A stretch of 64,000 nt of DNA. It comes from Verrucomicrobiia bacterium. GTDB taxonomy: Bacteria; Verrucomicrobiota; Verrucomicrobiia; Limisphaerales; CAIMTB01. The translations under genes were made by a program, and so were the position numbers. Under the pieces are notes generated by a model. That model saw only the letters and a list, made by a program, of their open reading frames with translations. It was not told where the DNA came from and did no database searches. This document shows positions 1 to 34,172 of this stretch, piece after piece. The stretch's first letter is position 1. Each line of letters starts with the position of its first letter. Location of the stretch: assembly GCA_019634625.1 (NCBI GenBank), contig JAHCBA010000003.1, forward strand, positions 62,001 through 126,000, given 5' to 3'.

Positions 1-1
1 C

Positions 2-2665: not shown

Positions 2666-2667
2666 AC

Positions 2668-6620: not shown

Positions 6621-6888
6621 TGTCGTGGGAGTTTGAAACCGCGCTGACGAAAATCCGATTTGTTTCTGAGGTGGAGCTCGCACCGCGGTGCTATTCCCAC
6701 GGTCTGGCGCGTGCGGCAGCGAGTTTGAACCTCAGCCCTTCAGGCCTTTGTTCCAAAATGAACCCATGATTGGCGGGGCTTTCGGGCCAAATTATTTGGC
6801 AAAAATTTGGAAACGCGCCCGAGTGCACCCCTGTGCGCCCCAGCGCGCCCAAATGCCAGGGAAAATCAGGAAGCGTGCCAGAAAAGCA

Positions 6889-8685: not shown

Positions 8686-8791
8686 CCCGACATTGACCAC
8701 AGCCGGTTCCTCGATCCGAGGATCGCCGGCACCAGCGCGACCCTGTTCTCCTTGCTCATGCTTCGAGGGACGACCCATCCTCGGTCGATTC

Positions 8792-9784: not shown

Positions 9785-9785
9785 C

Positions 9786-15650: not shown

Positions 15651-15857
15651 ATGCAAACGACGCAGAACCAACAATCGCTAGCGATGCGCGAGGCGCGACG
15701 TCGCCTCCGCCTGACGCAGTTCGCGCTGGCGAAGCGGGTGGGATGCTCCGAATCCCAGATCACAAAGATCGAGACCGGCAGAGCCACCCCGGAGAAGTGG
15801 CTGAAGGAAGCAATTGCCCGGGAACTGGGCGTCGCCACGTGGGAGGTCGGCGTATGA
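15651..15857 (+). CDS. XRE-family HTH transcriptional regulator
   Basis: This small Cro/CI-type protein is 68 residues from ATG 15651 (MQTTQNQQSLAMREARRR); a shorter start at 15684 is possible. It is almost entirely one HTH_3 domain: RRLRLTQFALAKRVGCSESQ forms the helix-turn-helix, followed by ITKIETGRATPEKW. Its size suits a Cro-like repressor or lysis-lysogeny switch. The inverted-repeat cluster at 15544-15572 is its likely operator. Its stop overlaps the next start (ATGA), beginning the early operon. No CI-sized repressor was found elsewhere in the prophage. Confidence 0.85.
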   Translation: MQTTQNQQSLAMREARRRLRLTQFALAKRVGCSESQITKIETGRATPEKWLKEAIARELGVATWEVGV

Positions 15858-17320: not shown

Positions 17321-18124
17321 ATGGCAGTCTTGAGCAAGAACAAGGTCCCCGCCGGTCACTGGTACCGCGAGGACGGCACGCCGGTTCATCGTCTTCCGAC
17401 TTCCGACGGTCGGGGCGAACGTCCGACCACAATCCGCGACGCCAAGCGCCTCGGGCTCTACCCGAGCGTCACCGGCATCCTCGGCATCCTGGCCAAGCCA
17501 GGTCTCGAAAAGTGGAAGCTCGACCAGGTCGCCCTCGCCACGCTCCGCACTCCGAAGGCGCAGGAAGAGTCCGAGGACTACTGGTGCAACCGGGTCCGCA
17601 CTGTGGCCTTCGAGCAGGTCGAGCAAGCCGCTGACCTCGGCACGATGATTCACGGTGCGCTCGAAGCCGCGATGGCGGGCGAGCCCTACGCCGAGGACCT
17701 CCGCACGTACGTCGAGCCCGTGCTCGCGTGGAAGCAGCAGGTCGGAATCGAAATCGTCGACCGCGAGTCCCGTCTCGTGAACCGGCAGCACGGGTTCGCC
17801 GGTACCGCCGACGTGCTCTTCCGGTACGGCCGAAACGGCATCGGCATCCTCGACTACAAGACCCGCAAGACGAAGCCGGGCGAGGACGTTCAGGCCTACG
17901 ACAACCAGGCCATGCAACTCGCCGCGTACGGCGCCACATACTGGGGCGAGGAACAGATTGGCCGCGTTCTCGCCGCCAACATCTTCATCTCGACGACCGA
18001 GCCCGGCCGCGTGGTCGTGGTGAAGCATCCCGATCCCACTCGCGACTGGCAGGCCTTCCGCATGGTCGCGGCCCTCTGGCGCTACAAGAATGGCTACGAC
18101 CCTCGCAAGGCCGTCCTGGGATGA
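17321..18124 (+). CDS. RecB-like PD-(D/E)XK exonuclease
   Basis: The 267-residue protein (MAVLSKNKVPAGHWY) carries the RecB/Cas4-like nuclease core. HGFAGTADVLFRY gives the Asp, ILDYKTRKT gives the (D/E)-x-K pair, and NQAMQLAAYG is the downstream QxxxY-like helix. TMIHGALEAAM supplies the N-terminal conserved His. In phages such enzymes act as exonucleases in recombination or DNA processing. The stop overlaps the polymerase start (ATGA), so both are translated from the same message. Confidence 0.85.
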   Translation: MAVLSKNKVPAGHWYREDGTPVHRLPTSDGRGERPTTIRDAKRLGLYPSVTGILGILAKPGLEKWKLDQVALATLRTPKAQEESEDYWCNRVRTVAFEQVEQAADLGTMIHGALEAAMAGEPYAEDLRTYVEPVLAWKQQVGIEIVDRESRLVNRQHGFAGTADVLFRYGRNGIGILDYKTRKTKPGEDVQAYDNQAMQLAAYGATYWGEEQIGRVLAANIFISTTEPGRVVVVKHPDPTRDWQAFRMVAALWRYKNGYDPRKAVLG

Positions 18125-19953
18125 TCGCGGAACCCGTCATCCTGACCCCGGCGATGTGGTTCGCGCAGCCGACCGGAGACCTGGTCGCCGTCGACTTCGA
18201 GACCTTCTACACATCGGCCTACTCGGTGAAGGAACTGGGCCACTGGGCCTACTGCCACGACCCGCGCTTCCACGCGTACCTCGTGGCAGTCACCGACGGC
18301 GAACGAACCTGCGTCTGCGCCCCACGACAGTTTCCGTGGGCGACCATCGCGGGCCGACGGTGGGTCAGCCACAACCGCGACTTCGACCGCGCCGTGTTCG
18401 AGCGGCTCCGCGAGTTGGGGGCGATTCCATCGGACGCCCGCGGTCCCGCCGAGTGGCACTGCTCCGCTGCCCTGTGTGCCTTCCTGCAACTTCCCCGCGA
18501 CCTCGCGGGCGCGGTGAAGGCCGTCTTCGGCCAGACGCTCGACAAGGCGCCGAGGTCTCGGGCGAAGGGTTGGAACCCGATGGAGGACGGATTCCTCGCC
18601 GTCGAGATGCGCCGCTATGCCGGTCGAGACGCGTTGGCGTGCCTCGCCCTTTGGAACCACCTGGAGCGCCACTGGCCGACGCACGAGCGCCGCCTCTTCG
18701 AAATCACCTCCGAGATGGGCCGGCGCGGGCTTTGCGTCGACTGGGAGCACGTTCGGGCGAGTCGCCAAGGCCTCCAAGAGTTGGTCAGCGCGATGTCTGC
18801 GGGGCTGCCGTGGGATCGGGCGCTGTCGATCAAGTCGTTTCGCGCCGCCTGCCAACTGAAAGGCGTCGAGGCCCCGGCCAGCACCTCGGCCAAGGACCCG
18901 GGCTTCATCGAGTGGGCGGACGCGAACCCGGAATCGGTGGGCACGGGCTGGGCTCGGGACATGCAACGCATCCGGTCCGCGAACCGGACCGCCCGGGTGC
19001 TTGAAGCGATGGAAGCGCGGCGGATGCCTGGCGGCCGGATGGCCTACGAGTTGCGGTACTTCGGCGCGAGCACGGGCCGCTGGTCCGGTGGCGGCGGGCT
19101 GAATCTCCAGAACCTTAACCGGAAGACTGCCGAAGGCGTTGACCTCCGCCGCGCCATCGTAGCTCCACCAGGACGAGTGCTCGCCGTCGTCGATTACAGC
19201 CAGATCGAGAGCCGGGTCCTGCTCTACCTCGCCGGGGACACCGAGGCCCTGCGCCTCTTCCGCGAAAGCCCGGAGGCCGACGCCTACGAAATCCACGCCC
19301 GCCGGACGATGGGCTACGCCGAGCCCGAACCGCTGAAGGCCTACTGCGACCGGACCGGCTCCGGACTCCGACAACTCGCGAAGGCACGCGTGCTGGGCCT
19401 CGGCTTTGGCTGCGGGTGGCGGAAGTTCATCGAGGTGGCCCGGGTGATGGCGGGCCTCGAACTCTCGGACGCGGAGTCGAAGCGAATCGTGACCGAGTTC
19501 CGCGATTCCAACCCGCTGATCGTCGACCTCTGGGACCGGCTTCAAGCGGCGTGCGAAGCTCGCGACCGTCAGCACTACGCCCTGCCGCTGCCGGTCGCGC
19601 AACACGACCCCGCGTCGAAGCGGTTCCTGCTCTACCGCGACATCAGCGTCACCGAGGACGGTATCACCTGCACCGTGGGCGGTGAGCGTATCCGGGTCTA
19701 CGGCGGTCTCCTGGCCGAGAACTGGACGCAGGCCACCGCCCGCGACGTTCTCGCCTTCGCGTGGCTCCGATGCGCCGACGCCGGCTTCCTGCCCGTCCTC
19801 AGCGTCCACGATGAACTCGTGTTCGAGCTGCCCGAGGCCTCCGCCCGCGAGGACCTCGAACGCATCACCCGGATCATGGAAACCCCGATGCCTTGGGCAC
19901 CGCACCTCCCGCTGAAGGTCGACGGCAAGCTGACCCCTTTCTACGCCAAGTGA
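18121..19953 (+). CDS. Phage DNA polymerase, family A, with 3'-5' exonuclease
   Basis: The 610-residue enzyme starts at ATG 18121. The N-terminal exonuclease domain begins AVDFETFY, with catalytic Asp25 and Glu27. In the polymerase domain, motif A is VVDYSQIESRVLLYLAGD (Asp358), motif B/O-helix is the RQLAKARVLGLGFGCGW region, and motif C is SVHDELVFELPE (Asp564). RYFGASTGRWSGGGGLNLQN is the usual template-binding block. It has no 5'-3' nuclease domain, as in T7-like and many siphophage enzymes. It replicates the phage genome together with the primase and helicase encoded next. Confidence 0.95.
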   Translation: MIAEPVILTPAMWFAQPTGDLVAVDFETFYTSAYSVKELGHWAYCHDPRFHAYLVAVTDGERTCVCAPRQFPWATIAGRRWVSHNRDFDRAVFERLRELGAIPSDARGPAEWHCSAALCAFLQLPRDLAGAVKAVFGQTLDKAPRSRAKGWNPMEDGFLAVEMRRYAGRDALACLALWNHLERHWPTHERRLFEITSEMGRRGLCVDWEHVRASRQGLQELVSAMSAGLPWDRALSIKSFRAACQLKGVEAPASTSAKDPGFIEWADANPESVGTGWARDMQRIRSANRTARVLEAMEARRMPGGRMAYELRYFGASTGRWSGGGGLNLQNLNRKTAEGVDLRRAIVAPPGRVLAVVDYSQIESRVLLYLAGDTEALRLFRESPEADAYEIHARRTMGYAEPEPLKAYCDRTGSGLRQLAKARVLGLGFGCGWRKFIEVARVMAGLELSDAESKRIVTEFRDSNPLIVDLWDRLQAACEARDRQHYALPLPVAQHDPASKRFLLYRDISVTEDGITCTVGGERIRVYGGLLAENWTQATARDVLAFAWLRCADAGFLPVLSVHDELVFELPEASAREDLERITRIMETPMPWAPHLPLKVDGKLTPFYAK

Positions 19954-22261: not shown

Positions 22262-22657
22262 GTGAAAGGCCTCTCCCCCACCCAGCGAACGCTTCGCGCT
22301 CTCCGCGAGCAAGGCCTCGTCTGCACCATCGTCGAGAAGTGGAATCCCTACGGCGGGCCTCACGGCATCCGGCAGGACCTCTTCGGAATCATCGACATCC
22401 TCGCCCTCGACCCTCGGCGCGGCGTCGTCGGCGTCCAGTCCACCGGCCAGGACTTCGCCGGCCACCTTCGCAAGCTGACCGAGGAGAAGGCCCAGGAGTG
22501 CCTCGACTGGCTGACCACGCCCGGCACCGCGCTCGAGTTGTGGGCGTGGCGGAAGGTGAAAGCCCAGCGCGGCGGCAAAGCGCTGATCTGGCAACCCCGA
22601 GTTCAGGTCCTGACTTCGAACGATTTCAAACCCCAACCCCAGGAGCAGCAGACGTGA
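22262..22657 (+). CDS. Predicted small nuclease-like phage protein
   Basis: A GTG at 22262 gives 131 residues (MKGLSPTQRTLRALREQGLV). The core KWNPYGGPHGIRQDLFGIID followed by ILALDPRRGVVGVQSTG has the spacing of a VRR-NUC or resolvase-type PD-(D/E)XK fold, with Gln where Lys is usual (GVQ). Downstream blocks LDWLTTPGTALELWAWRKV fit the same fold. It may resolve or trim DNA, or be an inactive relative. Its stop overlaps the next GTG (GTGA). Confidence 0.6.
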   Translation: MKGLSPTQRTLRALREQGLVCTIVEKWNPYGGPHGIRQDLFGIIDILALDPRRGVVGVQSTGQDFAGHLRKLTEEKAQECLDWLTTPGTALELWAWRKVKAQRGGKALIWQPRVQVLTSNDFKPQPQEQQT

Positions 22658-23076
22658 AACCGGAGTTCCACGAAGGGTGGATTGCCAAGCATCGCGATCC
22701 GCTCGACGCCGCAGACCAGGACTTCGAGTGGAACGAAATCTTGGACCGCCTGGACGAGGACCTCGAAGCGGGCAAGACGGACAAGACCGTTGCCGAAGCG
22801 GTGAAGCGGCTGATCCAGCTGCTCGTCCCGAACTACACGAATCGTCGCGTCTGGCCCAAATCGCTCGGCGTTCGACTCCTCGCCCTCGCGTGGGTTCTCG
22901 ACCCCGGCTACTTCCCCGGCAGCCCTTCACTTCGCGAACTCGCCCGCCGCGCGAAGGTGACCCCGGCCAAGCTCGCCAAGCACGCAGGCCGCTACAGCCG
23001 CCTCCTGCGCTGGCGTCACCGTGGCCAGCGTCACGCCTGGAACTGGCGCAAAGGACAACGTTCCGCACGTGGGTAG
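22654..23076 (+). CDS. Hypothetical phage protein ending in the 18-bp repeat
   Basis: The GTG at 22654 overlaps the previous stop. The 140-residue product has an acidic N-terminal half (WNEILDRLDEDLEAG) and a basic C-terminal half (SLRELARRAKVTPAKLAKHA) that looks like a helix-turn-helix. The last codons WRKGQRSARG are written by the 18-bp repeat at 23047-23064, so its natural C-terminus may have been altered by insertion of that repeat. Function unknown, perhaps a late regulator. Confidence 0.6.
   Translation: MKPEFHEGWIAKHRDPLDAADQDFEWNEILDRLDEDLEAGKTDKTVAEAVKRLIQLLVPNYTNRRVWPKSLGVRLLALAWVLDPGYFPGSPSLRELARRAKVTPAKLAKHAGRYSRLLRWRHRGQRHAWNWRKGQRSARG
23047..23064 (+). repeat. 18-bp repeat CGCAAAGGACAACGTTCC, copy 1
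   Basis: Full match to the consensus. It is the last part of the 22654-23076 gene, read in the frame that gives KGQRS, 12 bases before its stop. Confidence 0.9.
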
Positions 23077-23167
23077 AACGATGCACTGCGACCCAACGCT
23101 CCAACCGCGCACAGCCAGCCTGCGCAGCCGGTGCCTCAGCCTGCGAGAGGCCGCCGTTGACGCCGAC

Positions 23168-23184
23168 CCAAAGGACAACGTTCC
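23168..23184 (+). repeat. 18-bp repeat, copy 2 (variant 5' end)
   Basis: It reads CCAAAGGACAACGTTCC, differing from the consensus only at its 5' end, and is followed by CGC. It lies in the ~240-bp non-coding gap before the ParB-like gene. I see no gene in the rest of this gap. Confidence 0.85.
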
Positions 23185-23319
23185 CGCTTCCCTGAAAACG
23201 CACGAGAACCGGCTTCTCGCAGGCGAGACGGGGTGCCTCGGCCCCGGGCCGGTGGGGGGAAGGAATCTTTTGCCGGCCCCCGGTGGGGTGGAGGTGTGGC
23301 GTCAGCCCCGACAACGCGC

Positions 23320-23919
23320 ATGAACGACCGAAAACCAAAAAAACGCGCCGCGGTTCCAAGCCCGGCCCCGGAACCCTCCGCCAATCCGCCCGCCGGCCCA
23401 GCGGTCAACTGCGCCTTCGACGAGCTGGTGCCGCTGGAAAAGCTGGTGCCGAACCCACGCAACCCAAACCAGCACCCGCAGAGCCAGGTCGCCCTTCTGG
23501 CCAAGGTCATCGGGCATCAGGGCTGGCGCTCGCCGGTGGTCGTCTCGACCCGGTCCGGGTTCATCGTCGCAGGCCACGGTCGCTACGAAGCGGCCAAGGC
23601 ACTCGGACTATCGGTGGTGCCCGTCGACTACCAGGACTTCGCAACCGAGGCCGACGAGTGGGCGCACCTGATCGCCGACAACCGGCTGGCTGAACTCGCG
23701 GAGGCCGATGACGCCGCGCTTCGCTCGCTGCTCGGCGAACTGAAGGCGACCGATCTCGACATGGACCTGTCCGGGTTCGACGCGACGGCGCTGCAAGGCC
23801 TCCTGTCCGGCGCGGCAGAGCCCGAGGCCCCGGCCGACTTCCCCGCGGTCGACGAGAACGTGCCGACCGAGTTCCAGTGTCCGAGGTGTGCCTTCAAGTG
23901 GTCGGGCAAGCCGTCGTGA
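23320..23919 (+). CDS. ParB-like nuclease-domain phage protein
   Basis: From ATG 23320 the product is 199 residues. After a basic Pro-rich leader comes a ParB N-terminal domain: LVPLEKLVPNPRNPNQHPQS, a GWRSPVVVSTRSG strand, and IVAGHGRYEAAKALG, the conserved GxxR-type nucleotide-binding motif. It lacks the HTH of true partition ParB. Such stand-alone domains are common next to DNA methyltransferases in phages, and here a C5-methyltransferase overlaps its stop by GTGA. It may be a nuclease or a CTP-binding switch. The C-terminal PTEFQCPRCAFKW is a zinc-knuckle-like end. Confidence 0.85.
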   Translation: MNDRKPKKRAAVPSPAPEPSANPPAGPAVNCAFDELVPLEKLVPNPRNPNQHPQSQVALLAKVIGHQGWRSPVVVSTRSGFIVAGHGRYEAAKALGLSVVPVDYQDFATEADEWAHLIADNRLAELAEADDAALRSLLGELKATDLDMDLSGFDATALQGLLSGAAEPEAPADFPAVDENVPTEFQCPRCAFKWSGKPS

Positions 23920-25169
23920 AGATCGAGAAGCCACCCTACCGCGTTCCGAGCATGGCGGAGATCGCCGCCGTGCCGCGGAACGGTTTCACCGCCATCTCGA
24001 CCTTCAGCGGGTGCGGCGGTTCGTGCCTCGGGTACCGGATGGCCGGCTTCCGTCTCGTGTGGGCGAGCGAGTTCATCCCGGCCGCCGCCGAGGTATACCG
24101 GGCCAACCACCCCGACACGATCCTCGACACTCGCGACATCCGGGAGGTGAAGCCCAGCGACATCCTTGAAGCGGCAGGGCTCAAGGCGGGCGAACTTGAT
24201 CTCATGGATGGCTCGCCGCCGTGCGCCTCGTTCTCTACAGCGGGCAAGCGCGAGAAGCACTGGGGCAAGGCGAAGAAGTACTCCGACACCGTCCAGCGCA
24301 CGGACGACCTCTTCTTCGAGTTCATCCGGCTCCTGGATGGGCTGAAGCCCCGGGTGTTCGTGGCGGAGAACGTCAGCGGTCTCGTGAAAGGCGTGGCCAA
24401 GGGCTACTTCCTCGAAATCCTCGCCAAGCTGAAGGCCTGCGGCTACCGAGTCGGGGTCAAGGTCCTCGACGCGCAATGGCTCGGCGTCCCGCAGGCGCGG
24501 CAACGAACCATCTTCATCGGCGTGCGCGAGGACCTCGGGAAACCGCCCGTCTTCCCGAAGCCGCTGCCCTACCGCTACACGCTCCGCGACGCGTTGCCGT
24601 GGATCGTGCGCGGCAAATACGGTCCGACGTGGAAGCCGGCGGACGCGCCGTCGCCGACCGTCAGCGCGCACGGGTCGTACAACCCGGTGACGAGCCATCA
24701 GGGTCTCGAACTGGTCGAGGCGCGGATCACCGGCGGCACCGGCGCGGCGTTCGATCAAAAGGGCCAGGCGTTCGACCCTGACCGTCCGTGCCCGACGGTG
24801 CTGGGCACCAAACCGAACCAGTTCGCGGTCGAGGGCCTCGACATGTCCCGCTTCGCCATCGGCAAGGAGTGGGATCGGCTCAAGCCCGGCGAATCGTCCG
24901 ACCGCTACTTCAACCTCGTGCGACCGCATCCGGACGCACCGTGCCCGACCATCTGCGCCAGTCACGGGCATCCGGGAATTGCGAGCGTCACGCACCCGAC
25001 CGAGAAGCGGAAGCTGGCCATCGCCGAGTTGAAGCGCATCTGCGCCTTCCCTGACGACTTTGTCCTGACCGGCAGCTACGGCCAGCAGTGGGAGCGTCTC
25101 GGTCGCGCCGTGCCCCCCGTCATGATGGCAGCCATCGGAAGGACCATTCGGGATGAAATCCTCGCTTGA
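23916..25169 (+). CDS. DNA (cytosine-5) methyltransferase
   Basis: The start is GTG 23916, overlapping the previous stop; the product is 417 residues. Motif I is STFSGCGGSCLGYRMAGF, motif IV is LMDGSPPCASFS with catalytic Cys, motif VI is AENVSGL, and motif VIII is VPQARQRTIFIG. The variable region holds the target-recognition domain, and the C-terminal part contains the motif IX-X region. No partner endonuclease is adjacent, so it is an orphan methylase, probably shielding phage DNA from host restriction. Confidence 0.93.
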   Translation: MKIEKPPYRVPSMAEIAAVPRNGFTAISTFSGCGGSCLGYRMAGFRLVWASEFIPAAAEVYRANHPDTILDTRDIREVKPSDILEAAGLKAGELDLMDGSPPCASFSTAGKREKHWGKAKKYSDTVQRTDDLFFEFIRLLDGLKPRVFVAENVSGLVKGVAKGYFLEILAKLKACGYRVGVKVLDAQWLGVPQARQRTIFIGVREDLGKPPVFPKPLPYRYTLRDALPWIVRGKYGPTWKPADAPSPTVSAHGSYNPVTSHQGLELVEARITGGTGAAFDQKGQAFDPDRPCPTVLGTKPNQFAVEGLDMSRFAIGKEWDRLKPGESSDRYFNLVRPHPDAPCPTICASHGHPGIASVTHPTEKRKLAIAELKRICAFPDDFVLTGSYGQQWERLGRAVPPVMMAAIGRTIRDEILA

Positions 25170-25821
25170 GATCCCCCAGCACTGGACGTTCCGCAGCCGT
25201 GCCGTCGCGAAGCACTTCGACCAGCACGTGCGCGAGCAGCTTCCGTGGTATGACGTTGCCACAAACGCCGTCGCCCACTTCGGCCGCCACTACATCCCGA
25301 ACGGAGGTCGGGTGTACGACATCGGGGCCTCGACCGGGAACATCGGTAACGCCCTCCGGGAGACGCTCGCCCAGCGGAAGGCGAAGTTCACCGCGATCGA
25401 GGAAAGCCAGGAGATGGCCGACAAGTACGCAGGCCCGCCTCAACTCATCGTCGCCGACGCCGTCAGCTTCGCCTACGAGCCATTCGACTTCGCGGTGGCC
25501 TTCCTGGTCTTCATGTTCCTGCCCGTCGCCACCCGCGGCTCGTTCCTGCGCCGGTTGCAGGGCCTGACCAAGCCCGGCGGCGCCCTCGTCATCCTCGACA
25601 AGATCCAGATGCCACCCGGGTACGTGGGGACCGCGTTCAGCCGGCTCACGCTCCAGCAAAAGCTCGCGGTGGGCGCGGAACCGGGCGCGATCCTCCAGAA
25701 GGAACTTTCCCTCGCCGGGTATCAGCGACCCTTCGACACTCGGCTCCTGCCGAAGACGGCGCGGGTGTTCTTCCAGGTCGGCGAGTTCGTCGGCTGGATC
25801 ATCGAGGCACCGGAGGCCTGA
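25153..25821 (+). CDS. Class I SAM-dependent methyltransferase, CmoA-like
   Basis: The 222-residue protein (MKSSLEIPQHWTFRSRAVAK) overlaps the C5-methylase end by 17 bases. It has GGRVYDIGASTGNIGNAL as SAM-binding motif I, FTAIEES as motif II and FAVAFLVFMFLP as the motif IV-type strand. The layout resembles CmoA/tRNA or small-molecule methyltransferases rather than a DNA methylase. Substrate unknown. It lies between the DNA methylase and the putative small terminase gene, so a role in modifying phage nucleic acid is possible. Confidence 0.8.
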   Translation: MKSSLEIPQHWTFRSRAVAKHFDQHVREQLPWYDVATNAVAHFGRHYIPNGGRVYDIGASTGNIGNALRETLAQRKAKFTAIEESQEMADKYAGPPQLIVADAVSFAYEPFDFAVAFLVFMFLPVATRGSFLRRLQGLTKPGGALVILDKIQMPPGYVGTAFSRLTLQQKLAVGAEPGAILQKELSLAGYQRPFDTRLLPKTARVFFQVGEFVGWIIEAPEA

Positions 25822-25824
25822 TCC

Positions 25825-26472
25825 ATGGCCGACCCCGGGACAATCGACACGGCTCAACTGATCCGGCTGTCGGGACTGACCGACCGGCGTCTGCGCGAAC
25901 TCGCTCGTGAAGGCTGGCTCCCAGCGCCCCACAACGGCCGGTATCAGCTCGTGGCCGCTATCCAAGGCCTGCTGCGCTACTACCGTGAGCGGGACGAGAA
26001 GCGCACCGTTCAGGAATCCTACGACAGCATCACGTCCTGCGCGGCCGCGACCGGCATTCCCTCGACTTCGATCAAGCACGCCAAGCGGTCGGGGTGCGGG
26101 GCGTTTCGCGGGAGCCGGGTCTACCTCGCCCCGCTGATCCGTTGGCTGTTCGAGACGCCGAACCGGTCGCCGGTGAACTACGAGCAGGAGAAGGCGCAAC
26201 ACGTCGTCCTGCAGAACGCCAAGCTGAAGGTCCAACTCCGGGAACTGAAGCGGCAGCTGATCCCGGTCGAGGAAGTCTCCCACCTGGGCGCCGAACTCGG
26301 CTCCGCGATCCGCAAGGTGCTGACCCGTCTGCATCGCATCGCGCCCTCCCTCGTCGGGCATCCGGTCGAAGTCGTCGAGGCTCGGCTCAAGGAGGAAGAG
26401 GACGAGGTCCTAAAGCAGTTGCATACCATCGACGAACGGCTCGGCCAGTGGCAGCGCTCCTCTTCGGACTGA
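25825..26472 (+). CDS. Putative small terminase subunit (Nu1-like)
   Basis: The 215-residue protein starts three bases after the methyltransferase stop. An N-terminal winged HTH (TAQLIRLSGLTDRRLRELAR followed by GWLPAPHNGRYQL) is followed by a second HTH-like block and a long charged coiled coil (KLKVQLRELKRQLIPVEEVS onward). Nu1-type terminase small subunits combine such a DNA-binding head with a helical oligomerisation and TerL-binding region. It precedes the large terminase gene by ~1.7 kb, with two accessory genes between. It would recognise the packaging site. Confidence 0.65.
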   Translation: MADPGTIDTAQLIRLSGLTDRRLRELAREGWLPAPHNGRYQLVAAIQGLLRYYRERDEKRTVQESYDSITSCAAATGIPSTSIKHAKRSGCGAFRGSRVYLAPLIRWLFETPNRSPVNYEQEKAQHVVLQNAKLKVQLRELKRQLIPVEEVSHLGAELGSAIRKVLTRLHRIAPSLVGHPVEVVEARLKEEEDEVLKQLHTIDERLGQWQRSSSD

Positions 26473-26525
26473 CCACGGTCGACTCTGGCCGCTGCCCGGG
26501 CGCGCCCTTTACGAGGCTCGTTCGT

Positions 26526-26960
26526 ATGGACGCTGCTTCGATCCCTGAAACCATCCGCACTATCATCGCCCAGTCGGGAGGCCTCGGCCTCCGCGGGGCC
26601 TTCACCTACATCGGCGCGCAGGACTTCCGCTACAAGTGCGCCCGAGCCGAGGGCGAATACCGTTCCGGCTTCCGGTCCCGGCTCACCTCGGAGGGCGGTC
26701 CGCCCCGTGTCGAGTTCGATGTTGGAATGATGGCGCGGGTGAACGGGAAGCCCGGCCGGGCGTGGACCCTCCTCATCGTCTACGAGCCCGACGACACTTA
26801 CACCGTCTGGCTCGTGGAGGGGCATGCACGGCGGAAAGCCGAATCGATGGTGCTGGCCTGCGTCCTCGGCGTGTACTGCGACACGCTGCAATCGGTCATC
26901 GAGGAGGCCTACGACCGCGCCATCGCCGAGCACAATGGCGGCTTCATCCCCTTGGGCTGA
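26526..26960 (+). CDS. Hypothetical phage protein (144 aa)
   Basis: The ATG at 26526 gives MDAASIPETIRTIIAQSGGL. The mid-part has beta-strand blocks (FRSRLTSEGGPPRVEFDVGM, WTLLIVYEPDDTYTVWLVEG). Its C-terminal SMVLACVLGVYCDTLQSVIE looks like a buried helix rather than a transmembrane one. No family recognised. It lies between the small terminase and the RadC-like gene on the same strand. Confidence 0.65.
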   Translation: MDAASIPETIRTIIAQSGGLGLRGAFTYIGAQDFRYKCARAEGEYRSGFRSRLTSEGGPPRVEFDVGMMARVNGKPGRAWTLLIVYEPDDTYTVWLVEGHARRKAESMVLACVLGVYCDTLQSVIEEAYDRAIAEHNGGFIPLG

Positions 26961-26962
26961 CC

Positions 26963-27460
26963 ATGAGCGAAACACCTCCCCGTCGTCGGCGCTCGAAGGA
27001 CAACCACGAGTTCGGTGTCGTCCGCCTTCGTGAGCTCCCGGTGCCCATCGCCTGCTGCGACAGCCCCGAGCGCATCTACGACTACTGGATGGCGAACATC
27101 GCCACGGCATCGTGGTACAGCCAGGAGGTCGAGTGCCTTTGCGTGATCCACCTGAACACACGACGGCGCGCCACCGGCTTCCACCTCGCCGGCATCGGCA
27201 CGCTCGATACCGTGCTCATGTCTCCGCGTGAGGTGTTCCGGACCGCGATCCTGAGAAACGCCGCGGCCATCGTGGTGGCCCATTCGCACCCTTCAGGGGA
27301 CGCGAGGCCCAGCGAATCCGACATCCGAGCGACTCGCGAACTCGTTCAGGCGGGCCGCATCATCCGCATCGAAGTCCTCGATCATGTTGTGATCGGACAG
27401 TCCGGTCCCGATCACCCGCGCCCGTGGGCGTCGTTGCGCGAGCTCGGCCTGTTCTACTGA
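26963..27460 (+). CDS. RadC-like JAB-domain protein
   Basis: The 165-residue protein has the JAB/MPN metalloprotease-fold signature of RadC-family proteins: VVAHSHPSGDARPSESD gives H-x-H-P-S-G...S-x-x-D, the metal-binding set. LAGIGTLDTVLMSPREVFR is the usual upstream block. It lacks the N-terminal helix-hairpin-helix of chromosomal RadC, as is common for mobile-element copies. Molecular function is unsettled for the family. It starts two bases after the previous stop, next to the terminase genes. Confidence 0.88.
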   Translation: MSETPPRRRRSKDNHEFGVVRLRELPVPIACCDSPERIYDYWMANIATASWYSQEVECLCVIHLNTRRRATGFHLAGIGTLDTVLMSPREVFRTAILRNAAAIVVAHSHPSGDARPSESDIRATRELVQAGRIIRIEVLDHVVIGQSGPDHPRPWASLRELGLFY

Positions 27461-27572
27461 ACCGGGGTCCACGGTTTGTTCGGAGAACCCTTGGACACTC
27501 TGACGGCCTCACCGTAGCGAGACTCACGTTCGGAGCGGACCAACCAAACCCCCGCGCCGACCCAAGATCAAC

Positions 27573-28001
27573 ATGAAGAAGACGACCGAAACCACCAAGG
27601 ACCAGACCTCGAAGACCACCACCGCGACTGCCACCGAGCCGAAGGCCGCGAAAGCAAAGAAGGCGACCCCGGCCCCCGCGACCGAGCAGCCGGTGGCCCA
27701 GCCCGCCGCCGCCGCCCCGGCGAAGGTCGAGAAGCCCGCGAAGGCTGCCAAGGCGTCGAAGTCCGACTCCGACGGGGAAGCGACCGACCGGCTCCCGACC
27801 ACGCTCGACGAGCTCAAGGAGACCAAGGGCGGCTTCGTCGCCTTCCACTTCCTGACCGGCAAGGACAAGGACGCCATCGCCAAGGACCTCGCCGCCGCCT
27901 TCAAGCTCGCTGAGCCGCAGGCCGCCAAGATCGTGCGCCGGATCACCGGCCGCGTCCGCCTCTACGCCCGGGTGTTCGAACTGGTCCCGGCGAAGAAGTA
28001 A
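27573..28001 (+). CDS. Histone-tail-like Lys/Ala/Thr-rich phage protein
   Basis: From ATG 27573 the 142-residue product has a ~70-residue N-terminal tail of Lys, Thr, Ala and Pro (MKKTTETTKDQTSKTTTATA..., AKVEKPAKAAKASK), like bacterial H1-type histone tails. A small folded domain follows (LDELKETKGGFVAFHFLTGK...AKIVRRITGRVRL). It lies just upstream of terminase and is followed by a strong terminator. DNA compaction or packaging is a plausible role, but this rests on composition only. Confidence 0.65.
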   Translation: MKKTTETTKDQTSKTTTATATEPKAAKAKKATPAPATEQPVAQPAAAAPAKVEKPAKAAKASKSDSDGEATDRLPTTLDELKETKGGFVAFHFLTGKDKDAIAKDLAAAFKLAEPQAAKIVRRITGRVRLYARVFELVPAKK

Positions 28002-28023
28002 CCGACGCGCACCGCGCCACGAC

Positions 28024-28053
28024 GCCCCTCTGACGAACCAGAGGGGCTTTTTC
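28024..28053 (+). terminator. Intrinsic terminator before terminase
   Basis: A perfect 9-bp stem (GCCCCTCTG/CAGAGGGGC) with loop ACGAAC is followed by TTTTTC, 22 bases after the stop at 28001. It closes the early/accessory block and implies a new promoter for the packaging and head genes downstream. Confidence 0.9.
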
Positions 28054-28055
28054 GT

Positions 28056-28119
28056 GTCCAAACGCGCCCGCGAGACCGCCGCGAGACCGCGCGAGGACCG
28101 GCCGAGGCGCTGTTTGGAC
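28056..28119. other. Candidate packaging (cos/pac) region
   Basis: An 8-bp inverted pair, GTCCAAAC (28056-28063) and GTTTGGAC (28112-28119), encloses two tandem 11-bp copies of CGCGAGACCGC (28069-28090) and a third imperfect unit. It lies in the short gap before the large terminase gene. Iterated and dyad sequences at this position are where terminases often bind or cut. The role is inferred. Confidence 0.35.
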
Positions 28120-28168
28120 GGTCCGGCAGGTAGGTCGACCGGGGTTTCGCTGGATCAGGCCAGCGAGG

Positions 28169-28186
28169 CGCAAAGGACAACGTTCC
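28169..28186 (+). repeat. 18-bp repeat CGCAAAGGACAACGTTCC, copy 3
   Basis: Full consensus match followed by CGC. It is non-coding and ends 10 bases before the GTG start of the large terminase. Confidence 0.9.
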
Positions 28187-28196
28187 CGCCTGATGT

Positions 28197-29999
28197 GTGG
28201 GACCGTCCAGACACCCCCTGATCGAAGGCTTCTGCAGCGCATGCAAACCAGCCGACCGCCGGCCTCCTTGGCAGTGGTGCGAGGAACACGTCCGGGTCGA
28301 CGAGACATCCCCGCTGCCGGGCCGCTGGCGATCCGATGCGTCCCCGTGGGTCCGGCCGGTGATGGACGACTTCGCCAACAACGCTATCCGGGACATCGCC
28401 GTCCAGTGCGCGGCCCAGAGCGCCAAGACCCAGACCGTCATGAACTGCGCCTGCTGGGCCATCGCGGAGGACCCCGGCCCCGCGATGTGGGTGACGGCGA
28501 CCAAGGATGAGCTGCGAGACTTCCTCCGCGACCGGCTGACACCGACCTTCGAAGACTGCCCCCCGGTGAAGGCGCGCATGGCCGAGCCCACGTTGACCGG
28601 CTTCGCCTTCGACGGCATGCCATTCTACGCGGGCTGGTCGGGCTCAAAGGCCCGGCTCCAGTCGAAGCCCATCCGCTGGCTCTTCTGCGACGAGGTCCGC
28701 AACTACGCACCCGGCCGGCTGGAAATGGTCCTGAAGCGCACCCGATCCTTCTGGAACTCCCGCCGGTTCCTGATTTCGACTCCTGGCACCAAGGGCGACG
28801 CCATGGACACCGCGTTTCGCGCCGGTGACCAGCGTGTCTGGCACTTCGAGTGCCCTGCCTGCCACCACCTACAGCCCCTGAAGTTCGAGCAGCTCAAGTG
28901 GGATTCCGACGACACCACGAAGCCCGAGGGCAAGTGGCGCTTCGACGCCCTCGCCGAGACGGTCCGCTTCGAGTGCGCGGGCTGCGGACACCGGATCAAG
29001 GACACGCCCGTGGACCGCCGATGGATCGAAAGCCACGGGCAGTTCATCCCGCAGAACGCCAACGCCCCGAGGTCACGGGTGAGTTACACGTGGAACGCGC
29101 TCCTGCCGCACTGGATCGAGTGGCGGTCCATCGTCGAAGAGTTCCTCGCCGCCGTAGATGCCATGCGGATCGAGGGCGACATCGAACCGATGTTCACGTT
29201 CGTCACCGAGACGTTGGGCGAACCGTGGGACCTCGACCGTTGGCTGGTCACCACCGACGACTACCTCCAGCAGCGCAAGGCCGACTACGATTTCGGCGAC
29301 CCTTGGCCGCTGGAAAAAGCCCGCTTCATCGCGGCCGACCGGCAGGCCCGAGGCGGCGAGCACTACTTCTGGGTGGCACGGGCCTTTGGCGCCGGCGGGG
29401 CCAGCCGGCTCCTCGGTTACGGCCGGTGCAGCAACACGACCGAACTCGAAGAAATCCGTCGGCAACTGAACGTGCCGGTGGTCAACGCCATGATCGACAC
29501 CGGCTTCAAGGCGTCCGAGGTCTACCGCTTCTGCATGGCCACCGGCTGGAAGGCGATGAAGGGCGACGACGCCGAGTGGTTCCTCAGCCAGGACCCGCGA
29601 ACAGGCAAAACCTTCCGTCGCGTTTGGCGTCGCATCCTGGTCGACCCGACTCTCGGGGCACGCAGGGCGCGAGTCCGGCGGCACCTGCCACTCTTCCAGT
29701 GGTCGAACCCGAGCCTGAAGGATCACCTTGCCCTGTTCACTCATGGAGTAGTCGGCCAGTGGTCCATTCCCCGCAAGACGGGCCGGGATTACGTCGACCA
29801 GATGACGGCAGAGGTTCGCGAGGAACGGGAGGATTCGCGTGGTCGGATCAAGGTGCTCTGGGTTCAGAAGCGGCGGGACAACCACTACTTGGACTGCGAA
29901 CTGATGATCGACGCCGCCGCGGTGATTTCAGGCGGCCTGAAGGTGGGCACGATCCCCGATTCCGAGACCGCAAAGGACAACGTTCCCGCTGGGGCGTGA
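28197..29999 (+). CDS. Phage terminase large subunit (GpA family)
   Basis: The 600-residue protein starts at GTG 28197. CAAQSAKTQTVMNCA is the variant Walker A of GpA-type terminases, and WLFCDEVRNY gives the Walker B Asp-Glu. A Cys-rich knuckle follows (FECPACHHLQPL and FECAGCGHRIK), typical of this family. The C-terminal nuclease domain includes NAMIDTGFKASEVYRFC. The motor cuts concatemers and pumps DNA into proheads through the portal. The last codons (AKDNVPAGA) come from an 18-bp repeat, so the natural C-terminus may have been altered. Confidence 0.93.
   Translation: MGPSRHPLIEGFCSACKPADRRPPWQWCEEHVRVDETSPLPGRWRSDASPWVRPVMDDFANNAIRDIAVQCAAQSAKTQTVMNCACWAIAEDPGPAMWVTATKDELRDFLRDRLTPTFEDCPPVKARMAEPTLTGFAFDGMPFYAGWSGSKARLQSKPIRWLFCDEVRNYAPGRLEMVLKRTRSFWNSRRFLISTPGTKGDAMDTAFRAGDQRVWHFECPACHHLQPLKFEQLKWDSDDTTKPEGKWRFDALAETVRFECAGCGHRIKDTPVDRRWIESHGQFIPQNANAPRSRVSYTWNALLPHWIEWRSIVEEFLAAVDAMRIEGDIEPMFTFVTETLGEPWDLDRWLVTTDDYLQQRKADYDFGDPWPLEKARFIAADRQARGGEHYFWVARAFGAGGASRLLGYGRCSNTTELEEIRRQLNVPVVNAMIDTGFKASEVYRFCMATGWKAMKGDDAEWFLSQDPRTGKTFRRVWRRILVDPTLGARRARVRRHLPLFQWSNPSLKDHLALFTHGVVGQWSIPRKTGRDYVDQMTAEVREEREDSRGRIKVLWVQKRRDNHYLDCELMIDAAAVISGGLKVGTIPDSETAKDNVPAGA
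29969..29986 (+). repeat. 18-bp repeat CGCAAAGGACAACGTTCC, copy 4
   Basis: Full consensus match followed by CGC. It lies inside the 3' end of the terminase gene in the AKDNVP frame, 10 bases before the stop codon. Confidence 0.9.
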
Positions 30000-30025
30000 C
30001 TGCTCGTCCACGCCTTGAAGTCCGG

Positions 30026-30328
30026 ATGCTCGTCCGGGCGCTCAAACTCCAACTTGCGACCGAGGGAACCTTGGTCGCCGCCCTGAACGCGCTCGTGACC
30101 CAGAAGTGGGCCGCGAACGTGGTCAACGGCCAGACCGTCCTGTCGACCTCCGAGGCCGGCGGGTCGGTGACGTTCACCTTCGAACGCGCTTACACGCCCA
30201 GCGAACTCGCCGTGATGGCGGAGGAAGCCCTCGAATGGGTGAACACCCTCGCCGATCCGGAGAACCCGCCGCTGGACGTCGCCCGGTACAATCGCCTCCA
30301 CCCCACCTTCCACAAAGCCGTCCTGTGA
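30026..30328 (+). CDS. Small head-tail joining protein (gpW-like position)
   Basis: From ATG 30026 (MLVRALKLQLATEGTLVAAL) the 100-residue product lies between terminase and portal, where lambda-type phages carry gpW. It has an N-terminal helix and a beta-strand pair (VNGQTVLSTSEAGGSVTFTF), then a C-terminal helix, compatible with a small head-completion protein. Its stop overlaps the portal GTG by four bases (GTGA). Function is assigned mainly by position. Confidence 0.6.
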   Translation: MLVRALKLQLATEGTLVAALNALVTQKWAANVVNGQTVLSTSEAGGSVTFTFERAYTPSELAVMAEEALEWVNTLADPENPPLDVARYNRLHPTFHKAVL

Positions 30329-31899
30329 TAACCCTCTTCCGCCGCCTCTTCCCGTCCGCCTCGAACCCGGCCAAGGGAACCTCGAACGTTCGCCCGCCCC
30401 AACCCGCGGCAGGCCCCGCACCCACGGTGACGCCTGTCCGGCACTACTTCGAGGCGCTGAACACCGTCGACCACCGGACGCCGATCCCAGCCACCGGGCT
30501 TTACGTCCACCGGCTGCTGTCGAAGTTCAACCGGCTTCAACTGGCCTCGGTCGCCCGCTACCTCTGGGACAACGTCGGGTTGGTGTTCTACGCCACGGAC
30601 CTGGTCGCCAACTACTCCACCCCGATGGTCCCCCGAGCGGCGACCTTGGACCGGAAGTGGAACGAGGCCGCCAACAGCTTCTTCGACGAGTGGGCCGAGC
30701 GCGCCGATTTCACAGGCCGGTTCGATTTCTGGGACCTGCAACGGCTGGGGTCCTTCTACCTGGACACCGACGGCGAGGTGTTCGCCCTCTGGACGGACGA
30801 GGCCGGCTTCCCGCAGGTCCAGCTCCTGGAATCGTGGCGGATCGACAAGCCGACGGTCGCGGATGACCGCATCTTCGACGGCGTCCAAATCGACACGCAG
30901 GGCCGGGTCCTCGGGTACTGGCTCGACGGCAAGACCCTGCTCGATGCCAACGCCCTCGTTCATCTCTTCGACCTGGAGCGGTACACCCAGTACCGGGGGA
31001 TGAGCCCGATTCGCCGTGGGGCGAACGACATGCGGGACGGGAACGACATCAAGGGATTCCAGAAGGTCCTGTCGAAGCTCTCCACGGTCCTGACCCTCGC
31101 CATTCAGGGGGCGCCCCTCGAAGAGAACCCGTGGGGCTCGCCCCCGGAACCGGCAGGCGAAGGCTCGACCGAGGAGGAGTCGGCACCGGAGTCGAACGCC
31201 AAACAGCGCAGCTTCACCGTCGCCGACCTCGTCGCCGGCGACATCCCCACCGTCCCGGAAGGTCACGAACTGAAACAGGTCAACACTCCCAGCGCGCCGG
31301 CCAACAACATCGAGGTCATCAGCTACCTCGCCGGGTGCTTCGTCGCCGGTATGGGCCTCCCGCCCGCCTTCTTCCTCGACGAGAAGCTGACCGGCCCGAA
31401 CCAGAGGGCGGTGAATGGCAAGGCCCAGCGGAAGTTCGACCGCCGCAAGCAGGTCGCCGCCCGGCTGGGGCGCTCGGCCTGGCAACGGGTCATCGCCAGC
31501 GGGATCGCATCCGGCGCACTGCCGGCCACCGACGGCTGGGCGCGGTGCGACTTCATCGGCCCGTCCAAGATCACCATCGATGCCGGCCGCGAGATGGCGC
31601 AGGAGCGCGAGGACGTGGCCCGCGGGCTCATGACGCGGCGGGATCACTACGGCAACCGGGGCCGGTCGTGGCGACGCGAGACCGACCAGCTCTTCGAGGA
31701 GATCGACTACATCCTCGACCGGGCCAAGACCGTCGCGGGCGAGCACGGCATCCCGGTGGAAACGGTCATGGCGAGCTTCGGTCTTGCCACCCCGAAAGGC
31801 GGCGGTGGGCCGTCCCCCGACAACGCAAAGGACAACGTTCCGGCATCGGGTAATGAGCAGAGTTCTGACAATGCTGGCGGCGCAGGTGCCGATGCTTGA
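30325..31899 (+). CDS. Phage portal protein (lambda GpB family)
   Basis: The 524-residue protein begins at GTG 30325. NVGLVFYATDLVANYSTPMV, the LDRKWNEAANSFFDEWAERA block and DANALVHLFDLERYTQYRGM are typical of lambda-family portals. It would form the dodecameric ring through which DNA enters. The C-terminal ~35 residues, rich in Gly/Pro/Asp, include AKDNVPAS from an 18-bp repeat. The next gene starts inside its 3' end (47-bp overlap), so the repeat also precedes the protease start. Confidence 0.92.
   Translation: MITLFRRLFPSASNPAKGTSNVRPPQPAAGPAPTVTPVRHYFEALNTVDHRTPIPATGLYVHRLLSKFNRLQLASVARYLWDNVGLVFYATDLVANYSTPMVPRAATLDRKWNEAANSFFDEWAERADFTGRFDFWDLQRLGSFYLDTDGEVFALWTDEAGFPQVQLLESWRIDKPTVADDRIFDGVQIDTQGRVLGYWLDGKTLLDANALVHLFDLERYTQYRGMSPIRRGANDMRDGNDIKGFQKVLSKLSTVLTLAIQGAPLEENPWGSPPEPAGEGSTEEESAPESNAKQRSFTVADLVAGDIPTVPEGHELKQVNTPSAPANNIEVISYLAGCFVAGMGLPPAFFLDEKLTGPNQRAVNGKAQRKFDRRKQVAARLGRSAWQRVIASGIASGALPATDGWARCDFIGPSKITIDAGREMAQEREDVARGLMTRRDHYGNRGRSWRRETDQLFEEIDYILDRAKTVAGEHGIPVETVMASFGLATPKGGGGPSPDNAKDNVPASGNEQSSDNAGGAGADA
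31824..31841 (+). repeat. 18-bp repeat CGCAAAGGACAACGTTCC, copy 5
   Basis: Full consensus match. It lies in the portal gene's 3' end in the AKDNVP frame and ends 11 bases before the ATG of the protease gene. Confidence 0.9.
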
Positions 31900-32683
31900 G
31901 GCCCGTGCCGGGCAGGCCCTCTTCACCCGCATCCTCGGTCCCGCCGCCGCGGAGCCCGACTCCTGGCGCAAAGTCCGGCAGAACTTCGCCCCGCGGACCA
32001 CGATCGAGGACGGGGTCGGCGTCCTCGAAATCAACGGGGTGCTGGCCTACCGGCCCGACCTTGGGGAGCTGATCTTCGACGGCTTCGAGGATAGCGCGGA
32101 GGTCCTGGCATCGTTTCATCGGCTCGAAGCCGATCCCGAAGCCAAGGCCATCGTCCTGAACATCAATTCCCCCGGCGGCTTTTCCGTCGGCGGGGCCGAG
32201 ATCGCCGATGCCGTTCGTGGTTCCGCCAAGCCCGCCGTGACCTGGGTGGGCGGGATGATGTGCAGCCTCGCCTACTGGATCGGCTCGCAGGCGAAGGCCG
32301 TCATCTCGGGTCGCAGCGCGATGGTGGGGAGCATCGGGGCCTATGTGTCCGTGGTGGACTACCACCGGATGCTGGCCAATGCCGGCATCGAGGTCCGGGT
32401 GTTCACGAACAAGGAAGGCGCCTTCAAAGCGGCGGGCATGCCGGGGACCGAAATCACGTCCGATCACGCGTCAGAATTCACCCGCCAGGCGCAGCGCACT
32501 TTCGACCTCTTCCGGGCCGATGTGCTGCGCGCAAAGGACAACGTTCCCGCTACGGCGATGCAAGGTCAGGTCTTCGATGGGGCGGAAGCCAAGCGCAACG
32601 GGCTTGTCGATGCGTTGGGAGACCTGAATTACGCCAAGTCGGTGGCCCGTCGTTTGGCACGCAAAGGACAACGTTCCGCCTGA
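31853..32683 (+). CDS. S49-family prohead protease
   Basis: From ATG 31853 (MSRVLTMLAAQVPMLEARAG) the 276-residue enzyme has INSPGGFSVGGAEIADAV as oxyanion/strand block, nucleophile Ser138 in GMMCSLAYWIGSQ, and probable catalytic Lys192 in NKEGAFKAAG, the SppA/phage S49 dyad. It should process scaffold and coat during capsid maturation. Two 18-bp repeats lie in it: one internal (LRAKDNVPATAM), replacing a normally variable loop before GQVFDGAEA, and one supplying the last codons (KGQRSA). Despite this the conserved core is intact. Confidence 0.92.
   Translation: MSRVLTMLAAQVPMLEARAGQALFTRILGPAAAEPDSWRKVRQNFAPRTTIEDGVGVLEINGVLAYRPDLGELIFDGFEDSAEVLASFHRLEADPEAKAIVLNINSPGGFSVGGAEIADAVRGSAKPAVTWVGGMMCSLAYWIGSQAKAVISGRSAMVGSIGAYVSVVDYHRMLANAGIEVRVFTNKEGAFKAAGMPGTEITSDHASEFTRQAQRTFDLFRADVLRAKDNVPATAMQGQVFDGAEAKRNGLVDALGDLNYAKSVARRLARKGQRSA
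32530..32547 (+). repeat. 18-bp repeat CGCAAAGGACAACGTTCC, copy 6
   Basis: Full consensus match followed by CGC. It lies inside the protease gene, in the AKDNVP frame, at a variable loop. This is the only copy not near a gene end. Confidence 0.9.
32660..32677 (+). repeat. 18-bp repeat CGCAAAGGACAACGTTCC, copy 7
   Basis: Full consensus match ending three bases before the stop codon of the protease gene and 22 bases before the next ATG. It is read in the KGQRS frame, unlike copy 6 in the same gene. Confidence 0.9.
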
Positions 32684-32699: not shown

Positions 32700-33113
32700 A
32701 TGCCCGACACGATCCCTGACCAAAACGACGTTCTGGCGACCAACGAACGCCTGACGGCCGAGGTCACTCGGCTGACCGCCGAACTGACCGCCGCCACCGA
32801 GTTGCTCGAAGCCGGCCAGACCCAGTTGACGGCGGCCCAGAAGGAGGCCGCGAAGGTCCCCGACCTCACCGCCAAGGTGACGGCCCTCACAGAGAACCTC
32901 GAACGTTCCAAGGCGGAGGTCGCCGGCCTGAACACCAAGCTGGGCGACTTCAACAAGGCCGTCGCCGCCGAGGTTCAGAAGCTCGGTCTGCGCCCCAAGG
33001 CCGCGGAGCACAAGGAAGCCGCGGCCGATCCAGACCTGACTCCGACCCAACGCGTCCTCGCCGCCAAGGGCGTCGGCTCGATCCGCGAACTGTCCCCGAA
33101 GCTCAACGCCTGA
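32700..33113 (+). CDS. Coiled-coil scaffold-like protein
   Basis: The 137-residue protein begins MPDTIPDQNDVLATNERLTA, preceded by AAAAAAGGAAAG as ribosome site. Most of it is heptad-rich coiled coil (LTAEVTRLTAELTAATELLE..., LTAKVTALTENLERSKAEV), with a short C-terminal conserved-looking end (RVLAAKGVGSIREL). Position between the prohead protease and the coat gene and all-helical character point to a capsid scaffold or a head-decoration assembly factor. It lacks a signature motif. Confidence 0.65.
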   Translation: MPDTIPDQNDVLATNERLTAEVTRLTAELTAATELLEAGQTQLTAAQKEAAKVPDLTAKVTALTENLERSKAEVAGLNTKLGDFNKAVAAEVQKLGLRPKAAEHKEAAADPDLTPTQRVLAAKGVGSIRELSPKLNA

Positions 33114-33146: not shown

Positions 33147-34172
33147 ATGCCCACCACCATCAGCGATCTGTGGATTCCCGACATCTGGCTCCAGACGATG
33201 CGGGAGAAGCAGGCCACCTTTCCCACGCTCCTGAACTCCGGGGTCGTGGTCGACAACCCCAAGGCCACCGAACTCGCTTCCGGCCCCGGCGAAGTCGCCA
33301 CCATCCCGTTCTTCAAGGACATCACCGACCAGGACGACGAGATCCAGATCGAGAACGCAGAGCCCACGGTCGACAACAAGATCACCAGCGGCCAGATGAA
33401 GGCCGTCGCCTGCAACCGGGTCTGCAAAAGCTCGGCCACGGCGTTCGCGGCCCAACTTTCCGGCGAGGACCCCGTCGGCGAGATCGTTGCCCAGATGGCG
33501 CAGCGCCGGCTGAAGCAGCGCCAGAAGACCCTGCTCGCCATGGTGCGTGGGGCCTTCGGTTCTGCGGGCGCCTCCGGCGTGGCTGCGCCCCTGAAGGCGG
33601 TCCGCGTCGATGCCTTCGACGAGTCCGGCACCGACGCCACCGCTGCCCAACTGATGGGCATCGAACTCTTCATCCACGCCAAGAGCCTCATGGGCGAACT
33701 GGCGGATGACCTCATGGATGGTGCCTTGTGGCTGCACCCGACCATCCTCGCCGCGCTCGAACTGGCCGATGAGACCAGCTTCGACAAGGCCAGCCAGGGA
33801 CCGTGGACCATCCGCACTTACCGCGGCATCCCCATCTACACGTCGGAGGCCCTGGTGCGTGCCGGTACCACCAACGGGTTCGTGTACGACACCTACCTCC
33901 TGGCCAAGGGGATCATCGCCAAGGGTGAGAAGCCGCAGAAGACCGACGTGGTCGATGTCGCCGCGCTCCAGATGGAGAAGAAGTTCGGGCTCAACAACGA
34001 GATCATCTACGACCGGACCCGGTTCGTGCTCCACCTGAACGGCACCAAGTGGGTGGGGACGCCGGCCGCGGAAAGCCCGAGCAACGCCGAGCTGGGGACC
34101 ATCGCCAATTGGAACCTCGTGCTGGGCACGGCCAACCGCGTCGGGGCCGTGTGCATGCGCACCAACGGCTGA
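33147..34172 (+). CDS. Major capsid (coat) protein
   Basis: The 341-residue protein starts MPTTISDLWIPDIWLQTMRE. The region TLLNSGVVVDNPKATELASG and the FFKDITDQDDEIQIENAEP stretch resemble phage coat proteins of the HK97-fold class. The middle has the P-domain-like block MVRGAFGSAGASGV, and the C-terminal part is beta-rich. No separate N-terminal delta domain is present, consistent with the scaffold being encoded upstream. Position after protease and scaffold supports the call. It assembles the icosahedral shell. Confidence 0.85.
   Translation: MPTTISDLWIPDIWLQTMREKQATFPTLLNSGVVVDNPKATELASGPGEVATIPFFKDITDQDDEIQIENAEPTVDNKITSGQMKAVACNRVCKSSATAFAAQLSGEDPVGEIVAQMAQRRLKQRQKTLLAMVRGAFGSAGASGVAAPLKAVRVDAFDESGTDATAAQLMGIELFIHAKSLMGELADDLMDGALWLHPTILAALELADETSFDKASQGPWTIRTYRGIPIYTSEALVRAGTTNGFVYDTYLLAKGIIAKGEKPQKTDVVDVAALQMEKKFGLNNEIIYDRTRFVLHLNGTKWVGTPAAESPSNAELGTIANWNLVLGTANRVGAVCMRTNG

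Follow-up and report, generated by a model that had tools for sequence, protein, structure and literature searches.

Phage-specific oriented repeats in the late genes of Verrucomicrobiota prophages covary with a candidate helix-turn-helix regulator

Introduction

Phage-encoded regulators such as Ogr of P2 and C of Mu are made before the late phase and act on several late promoters, and the satellite P4 responds to Ogr. Short oriented sites before genes also serve as promoters for T7-type single-subunit phage RNA polymerases. In cluster A mycobacteriophages (L5, Bxb1, TipsytheTRex), short asymmetric sites termed stoperators lie at gene junctions, nearly all in one orientation; each phage has its own stoperator consensus, which goes with its repressor, and the helix-turn-helix (HTH) domain of the repressor reads part of the site (PMC9283540, PMC6550527). 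The start-associated sequences (SAS) of cluster K mycobacteriophages are asymmetric oriented repeats with the consensus GGGATAGGAGCCC, found immediately before start codons, and the factor acting on them was undetermined in that paper (PMC3203893). Here we describe an oriented 18-mer repeat in the packaging and head genes of a lambda-type prophage, and the adjacent gene g22654 proposed to encode its regulator, in a 64,000-nucleotide stretch of a Verrucomicrobiia bacterium genome (contig JAHCBA010000003.1, positions 62,001 to 126,000; hereafter the window, in whose coordinates positions are given).

The repeats resemble cluster A stoperators in being several asymmetric sites in a single orientation, here with 7/7 copies on the coding strand, and in having a per-phage consensus matched to a phage-encoded HTH protein. 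Unlike stoperators, which number 20-30, there are 5-7 sites here, confined to the packaging and head region with none seen at an early promoter; no sequence relationship was found, and the function here may be activation. Like SAS, the sites lie right before the start codons of the large terminase subunit (TerL), gpW-like and protease genes, although this does not hold for the first site and is looser at the last. Unlike GGGATAGGAGCCC, the consensus here is NNNNNNNN-AACGTTCC, and its 5' half switches between phages along with the HTH protein. The parallel with Ogr and Mu C is a proposed regulator for several late promoters, and a satellite-type element carrying sites for a helper's regulator would recall P4. 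Unlike those systems, in which sites are near -55, the sites here touch start codons; no sequence relationship was found, and the structure matches of the g22654 protein to Mu Mor and Mu C are non-significant (E 0.3 and 1.4). T7-type promoters share the short oriented sites, a phage-specific half and, in some types, CTATAGG near the end, but the covarying protein here has 140 amino acids. No T7-like polymerase was recognised in the host genome, a weak negative in that control genomes gave nothing either. A search of the literature on late promoters in Verrucomicrobia prophages found nothing on point.

Results

An oriented repeat marks the packaging and head genes

Six exact copies of the 18-mer (window-phage site CAAAGGACAACGTTCC) start at 23047, 28169, 29969, 31824, 32530 and 32660, all on the + strand, and a seventh on the same strand, at 23167-23184, differs by one mismatch; the original prediction had noticed this variant but placed it at 23168. 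All seven are oriented with the coding strand within the 10-kb stretch 23047-32677. The claim that there are none elsewhere in the window held when up to three mismatches were allowed, and the observed number is far above the chance level from shuffles (mean 0.10, maximum 2). Across the rest of the 6.74-Mb host genome (88 contigs), matches were found only on the same strand of the same contig (C3), in a second phage-like element some 34-42 kb past the final copy in the window: a near-copy, CAAAGGACAACGTTGC, at C3:128986, a match with two mismatches in the core at C3:129065, and an exact 16-mer core at C3:136139.

Copies in the terminase, portal and mid-protease read AKDNVP, those ending gene 22654 and the protease read KGQRS, and the copies at 28169 and 23167 fall outside called genes; these peptides, and two non-coding cases, had been read from the sequence at the outset. 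Because the coding copies use two reading frames and the others are non-coding, the shared constraint is on nucleic acid. Homologues agree with this: the peptide at the same gene ends tracks the site type (AKDNVP, KRNVP, PNVAP or PDIAP), and the mid-gene stretch of other phages' proteases reads REGVP or RESIP, so the peptide is not the conserved feature, in line with the initial proposal. A relative with 86% DNA identity (L009/L033) covers five copies and keeps all five, four of them unchanged. In that alignment the flanks have diverged at the TerL and portal sites, and 16.6% of all 15-mers are conserved. Apart from L009, a pattern scan of viral sequences returned six contigs. All six had only one copy, within a similar coding sequence that has no relation to the window phage, and we set them aside as a coding coincidence.

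Related phages carry their own versions of the site at the same places

In some 25 related phages, drawn from IMG/VR and from Verrucomicrobiota genomes of which several bear the label Pedosphaerales or subdivision 3, the corresponding junctions have a site built in the same way. Sites were picked by a rule that accepted one mismatch against a set of listed cores, and two erroneous picks were taken out by hand. Most relatives with TerL about 90% identical are without the window 18-mer, and several bear the type-B counterpart TGAAGCGTAACGTTCC at the same junctions (the window version is type A). A listing of all AACGTTCC cores and of the flanks of every gene start revealed five conserved places: the 3' end of gene 22654 (site i), before TerL (ii), before gpW (iii), the portal end before the protease (iv), and the protease end before the next gene (v). 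Orientation relative to transcription is the same in the relatives.

Each site consists of a phage-specific 8-nt 5' half and a roughly constant core, AACGTTCC. Versions of the 5' half include CAAAGGAC (window), TGAAGCGT, xxxxGCGT, xxATCGT, xxxxTCCG, xxxxxCTT and xxxxCCTG, among others; some phages have the core variants AACGTCGC, GACATCGC, AGCGTTCC or AGCGTGCC, and a weaker 3' flank favours C, T and G at 10, 12 and 15 nt past the core start. In most phages, all positions show a version particular to that phage. The identity between 8-nt halves is 0.76 for different positions within a phage and 0.45 between phages, a difference matched in 0 of 2000 permutations. This switching of the 5' half, like the adjacent regulator gene, had been overlooked in the original prediction. 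In a complete type-B prophage of about 48 kb (L222 + L116 + L223), all five sites lie between the regulator gene and the capsid gene, with none in its early, lysogeny or tail parts; the early/lysogeny region of the window prophage has none either. No clear repeated site set was seen at the distant loci L233, L126, L042, L043 and L046.

The site half covaries with the HTH of the adjacent protein

In relatives where the region is readable, a g22654 homologue (about 140-200 amino acids, helix-turn-helix) adjoins site i. An AF2 model of the window protein (mean pLDDT 72) places the HTH in helices 93-99 and 104-118. We compared distances of the site halves at positions ii-v, which lie kilobases from g22654, with HTH distances in a Mantel test, and obtained r = 0.86 for 15 phages and 0.91 for 11 phages. 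Correlations of the site half with other genes were much lower: TerL 0.33/0.22, portal 0.22, major capsid protein (MCP) 0.14, ParB 0.18/0.09, and -0.19 to 0.33 across ten other genes. For g22262, one of these ten, which overlaps g22654 by 4 nt, r was -0.01. The partial correlation stayed at or above 0.84 given any of TerL, portal, MCP or ParB, and was 0.66-0.78 given the N-terminal part of the g22654 protein. Since the phages share ancestry, the covariation has fewer independent points than pairs, which a test collapsed to one phage per HTH type covers in part (r = 0.72, p = 0.0006); with the 8 clearly distinct HTH types, r = 0.51 (p = 0.012).

A direct illustration comes from L039. Its head region DNA is 86.5% identical to that of the window phage, comparable to L009/L033 (85.8%), and over the compared stretches ParB and capsid share 99% identity with the window-phage proteins; nevertheless its sites are of type B, as is the helix of its regulator. 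The whole site set can change specificity together in phages otherwise closely similar in genes. At the level of sequence analysis, we regard the sites, their conserved places, their phage-specific versions and their covariation with the HTH as established. Because the site half covaries with the HTH of g22654 and not with the genes that hold the sites or with the gene adjoining g22654, g22654 very probably encodes the cognate DNA-binding regulator.

The protein gave no match in Pfam or PHROG, and none among INPHARED phages; relatives were found at 9 loci in IMG/VR and at two among 388 genomes of the phylum. The regulator would belong to a family unrecognised by Pfam and PHROGs. Some ten naturally occurring combinations of a recognition helix with its site, all from uncultured phages in a phylum that has received little study, would offer a readable protein-DNA recognition code.

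Layout of the module and a possible route to late transcription

The module runs in the order ParB-like nuclease, methylases, small terminase subunit (TerS), TerL (GpA), gpW-like, portal, protease, small head gene and capsid; names such as gpW-like are assigned by position. Its features are:

22654-23076, + strand: g22654, gene for a 140-amino-acid helix-turn-helix protein, the proposed cognate regulator (HTH residues covary with site type, 15 phages)
23047-23064, + strand: site i (type A), within the 3' end of the regulator gene
23167-23184, + strand: another copy at site i (1 mismatch), ahead of the ParB-like gene
23320-23919, + strand: ParB-like nuclease gene, first after site i (PHROG 620, E 1e-37)
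28024-28052, + strand: intrinsic terminator (9-pair stem and T run) upstream of site ii, separating gene 27573 from TerL
28169-28186, + strand: site ii, with the TerL start codon 10 nt on
28197-29999, + strand: terminase large subunit, GpA type (PHROG 15, E 3e-93)
29969-29986, + strand: site iii, within the TerL 3' end, with the gpW-like GTG 9 nt on
29996-30328, + strand: gpW-like head-tail connector gene (open reading frame (ORF) with conserved start; name inferred from position)
30325-31899, + strand: portal gene (PHROG 21, E 5e-31)
31824-31841, + strand: site iv, within the portal 3' end, with the protease ATG 11 nt on
31853-32683, + strand: head maturation protease gene (PHROG 53, E 2e-41)
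32530-32547, + strand: extra copy inside the protease gene, with an in-frame ATG 10 nt on; also in L033, not in the other types compared
32660-32677, + strand: site v, within the protease 3' end, upstream of gene 32700
32700-33113, + strand: small head gene (decoration or scaffold position)
33147-34172: major capsid gene, after the small head gene

The 9-pair terminator before site ii has counterparts in many relatives of several site types, where strong hairpins and T runs stand at the equivalent place, so TerL transcription must either begin anew or depend on antitermination. A search for sigma-70-like promoters between 21.9 and 33.2 kb found none (0.5 expected). Some phages have 0.3-1.3 kb of extra DNA between TerL and gpW. 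In these the site keeps its place at the start of gpW, and the longest ORF of the extra DNA usually runs on the opposite strand. The TerL-gpW junction is a cargo hotspot with variable, mostly opposite-strand ORFs (L113:11749-12555, and the same junction in L116, L120, L037, L110, L039 and L121); such cargo is absent in the window.

We favour, with modest confidence, a reading in which the repeats are oriented asymmetric binding sites of a late-gene regulon, bound by the g22654 protein and most likely starting late transcription. A late-promoter function is preferred because of the terminator before the TerL site, the lack of early or lysogeny sites, the opposite-strand cargo just upstream of a site and the lack of a sigma-70-like promoter. 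In such a scheme, g22654, at the end of the early region, would supply the HTH protein; its recognition helix would read the phage-specific 5' half (here CAAAGGAC), and conserved parts of the protein would read the AACGTTCC core. The bound protein would start transcription, or recruit RNA polymerase to start it, at each late unit: the genes after g22654 itself (ParB-like nuclease to TerS), TerL, gpW-portal, protease, and head, capsid and tail. RNA might begin at the conserved G, 15 nt past the core start. Physical binding, activation as its effect and this start position are what we infer from the sequence patterns, which probably reflect an undescribed lock-and-key switch for late phage genes.

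Several observations count against this late-promoter scheme. Sites ii and iii end just 9-11 nt short of start codons, so a promoter there must give an almost leaderless mRNA, and if a sigma-70 -10 box lay in the 3' flank, the RNA would begin beyond those start codons. Types A and B lack the AT-rich TATAGGT-like flank of several types. A Foldseek fold search with the g22654 model found no significant relative, the best being Mu Mor (E 0.32), with Mu C at E 1.4. Prophages L112, L121 and L124 are mosaic in site type, and the covariation could stem partly from a few recombination events among related phages.

Alternative explanations

The main rival, which we nonetheless consider unlikely, is that g22654 is a repressor made in the lysogen, whose bound oriented sites halt RNA polymerase and keep the late region silent. 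In build and placement the sites match cluster A stoperators, which are short and asymmetric, lie at gene junctions in a single orientation, and have a per-phage consensus paired with a repressor. The published reading of an asymmetric site by two domains, one of them an HTH, is closely parallel (PMC9283540, PMC6550527). A block also requires no leader room before a start codon, and accounts for the placement equally well. Stoperator repressors also act at an early promoter, though, and neither the complete type-B prophage nor the window prophage has early or lysogeny-region sites; in addition, g22654 is located at the end of the replication genes, and another Cro/CI-like HTH ORF is present at about 15651-15857.

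Q-like antitermination, in which the sites would load the regulator onto passing RNA polymerase for read-through of terminators such as that at 28024, seems improbable. A terminator does lie between two sites, and the position of g22654 is like that of lambda Q. Against it, at least five loading sites in one operon would be unnecessary, no paused late promoter was recognised, and the sites are directly before gene starts, not terminators.

An RNA-level element governing translation of the downstream gene, comparable to those of cluster K mycobacteriophages, would fit the location of AACGTTCC 9-14 nt ahead of the TerL, gpW and protease start codons, but we find it quite improbable. No consensus RNA fold of the sites was found, site i is in a coding tail with no known gene's start codon adjoining, most sites of the second-element array have no gene start after them, and the specificity half follows the HTH. 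Only a weak 4-pair stem was seen upstream of site ii. With no consensus fold and no Rfam match for the sites, the RNA-processing site offered in the original prediction is not supported, and of its three options the oriented phage DNA signal survives.

The third, a mobile REP-like unit, together with a recombination seam or chance repeat, is scarcely credible: two extra local copies in the window (23167 and 32530) speak for it, but the positions are homologous across many phages with differing sequence versions, inserted cargo leaves the site next to its downstream gene, oriented islands are conserved in non-coding DNA, copies are confined to phage elements, and copy number is far above chance.

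A second element carries an array of mixed site types

The second element (C3:128661-136241; L028:2661-10241) is on the same contig as the window prophage and has counterparts in three other genomes of the genus (L030, L031, L032/L219). Six oriented sites, which represent at least three types, occupy its leader of about 500 bp: TGAAGCGT and a CTCG/TCG type occur twice each, together with CAAAGGAC and GAGGGAC. In three aligned sequences, these sites are conserved islands between diverged spacers. The array is upstream of an HTH_17 gene and replication (primase-like) genes. In L028, TerS comes after the replication genes, then a RadC-like gene and a TerL stub that has a type-A site of its own. 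Stub ends differ between G000 and G004, which fits decay. No structural genes or g22654 were recognised in the element, nor an integrase beside it, and its HTH_17 protein had no relative in IMG/VR by the method used here.

The element may be a satellite answering several phages, or a defective prophage. If the mixed array answers several phages' regulators, it would provide a direct example of one element that listens to different helpers. We advance only tentatively, as a possibility short of even, the full picture of a Verrucomicrobiota phage family with an undescribed HTH regulator and sites switched as a set, in which the array of a satellite-like or defective element allows a response to more than one helper.

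Other features of the window

A conserved non-coding stretch, GGAAGGAATCTTTT...CCCCGGTGG...GGAGGTGTGGCGTCAGCC, is found upstream of the ParB-like gene at 23258-23348. It recurs in the second element close to TerS (L028:7585-7675), with a similar motif at L233:4820-4860. No RNA fold was found for the stretch upstream of the ParB-like gene, which is possibly a packaging site.

By reading, the early region has a family A DNA polymerase at 18124-19953, with primase-like and helicase-like genes after it. At 1-4810, 44587-47420 and 54012-55739, the remains of further prophages beside heavy-metal efflux genes are suggested by related tail-gene ends and another related integrase. The segments 4858-6683 and 8693-11324, also by reading, hold a DNA methylase, possibly accompanied by a partner gene, and a restriction-modification pair resembling PstI/BsuBI, and flank the prophage integrase.

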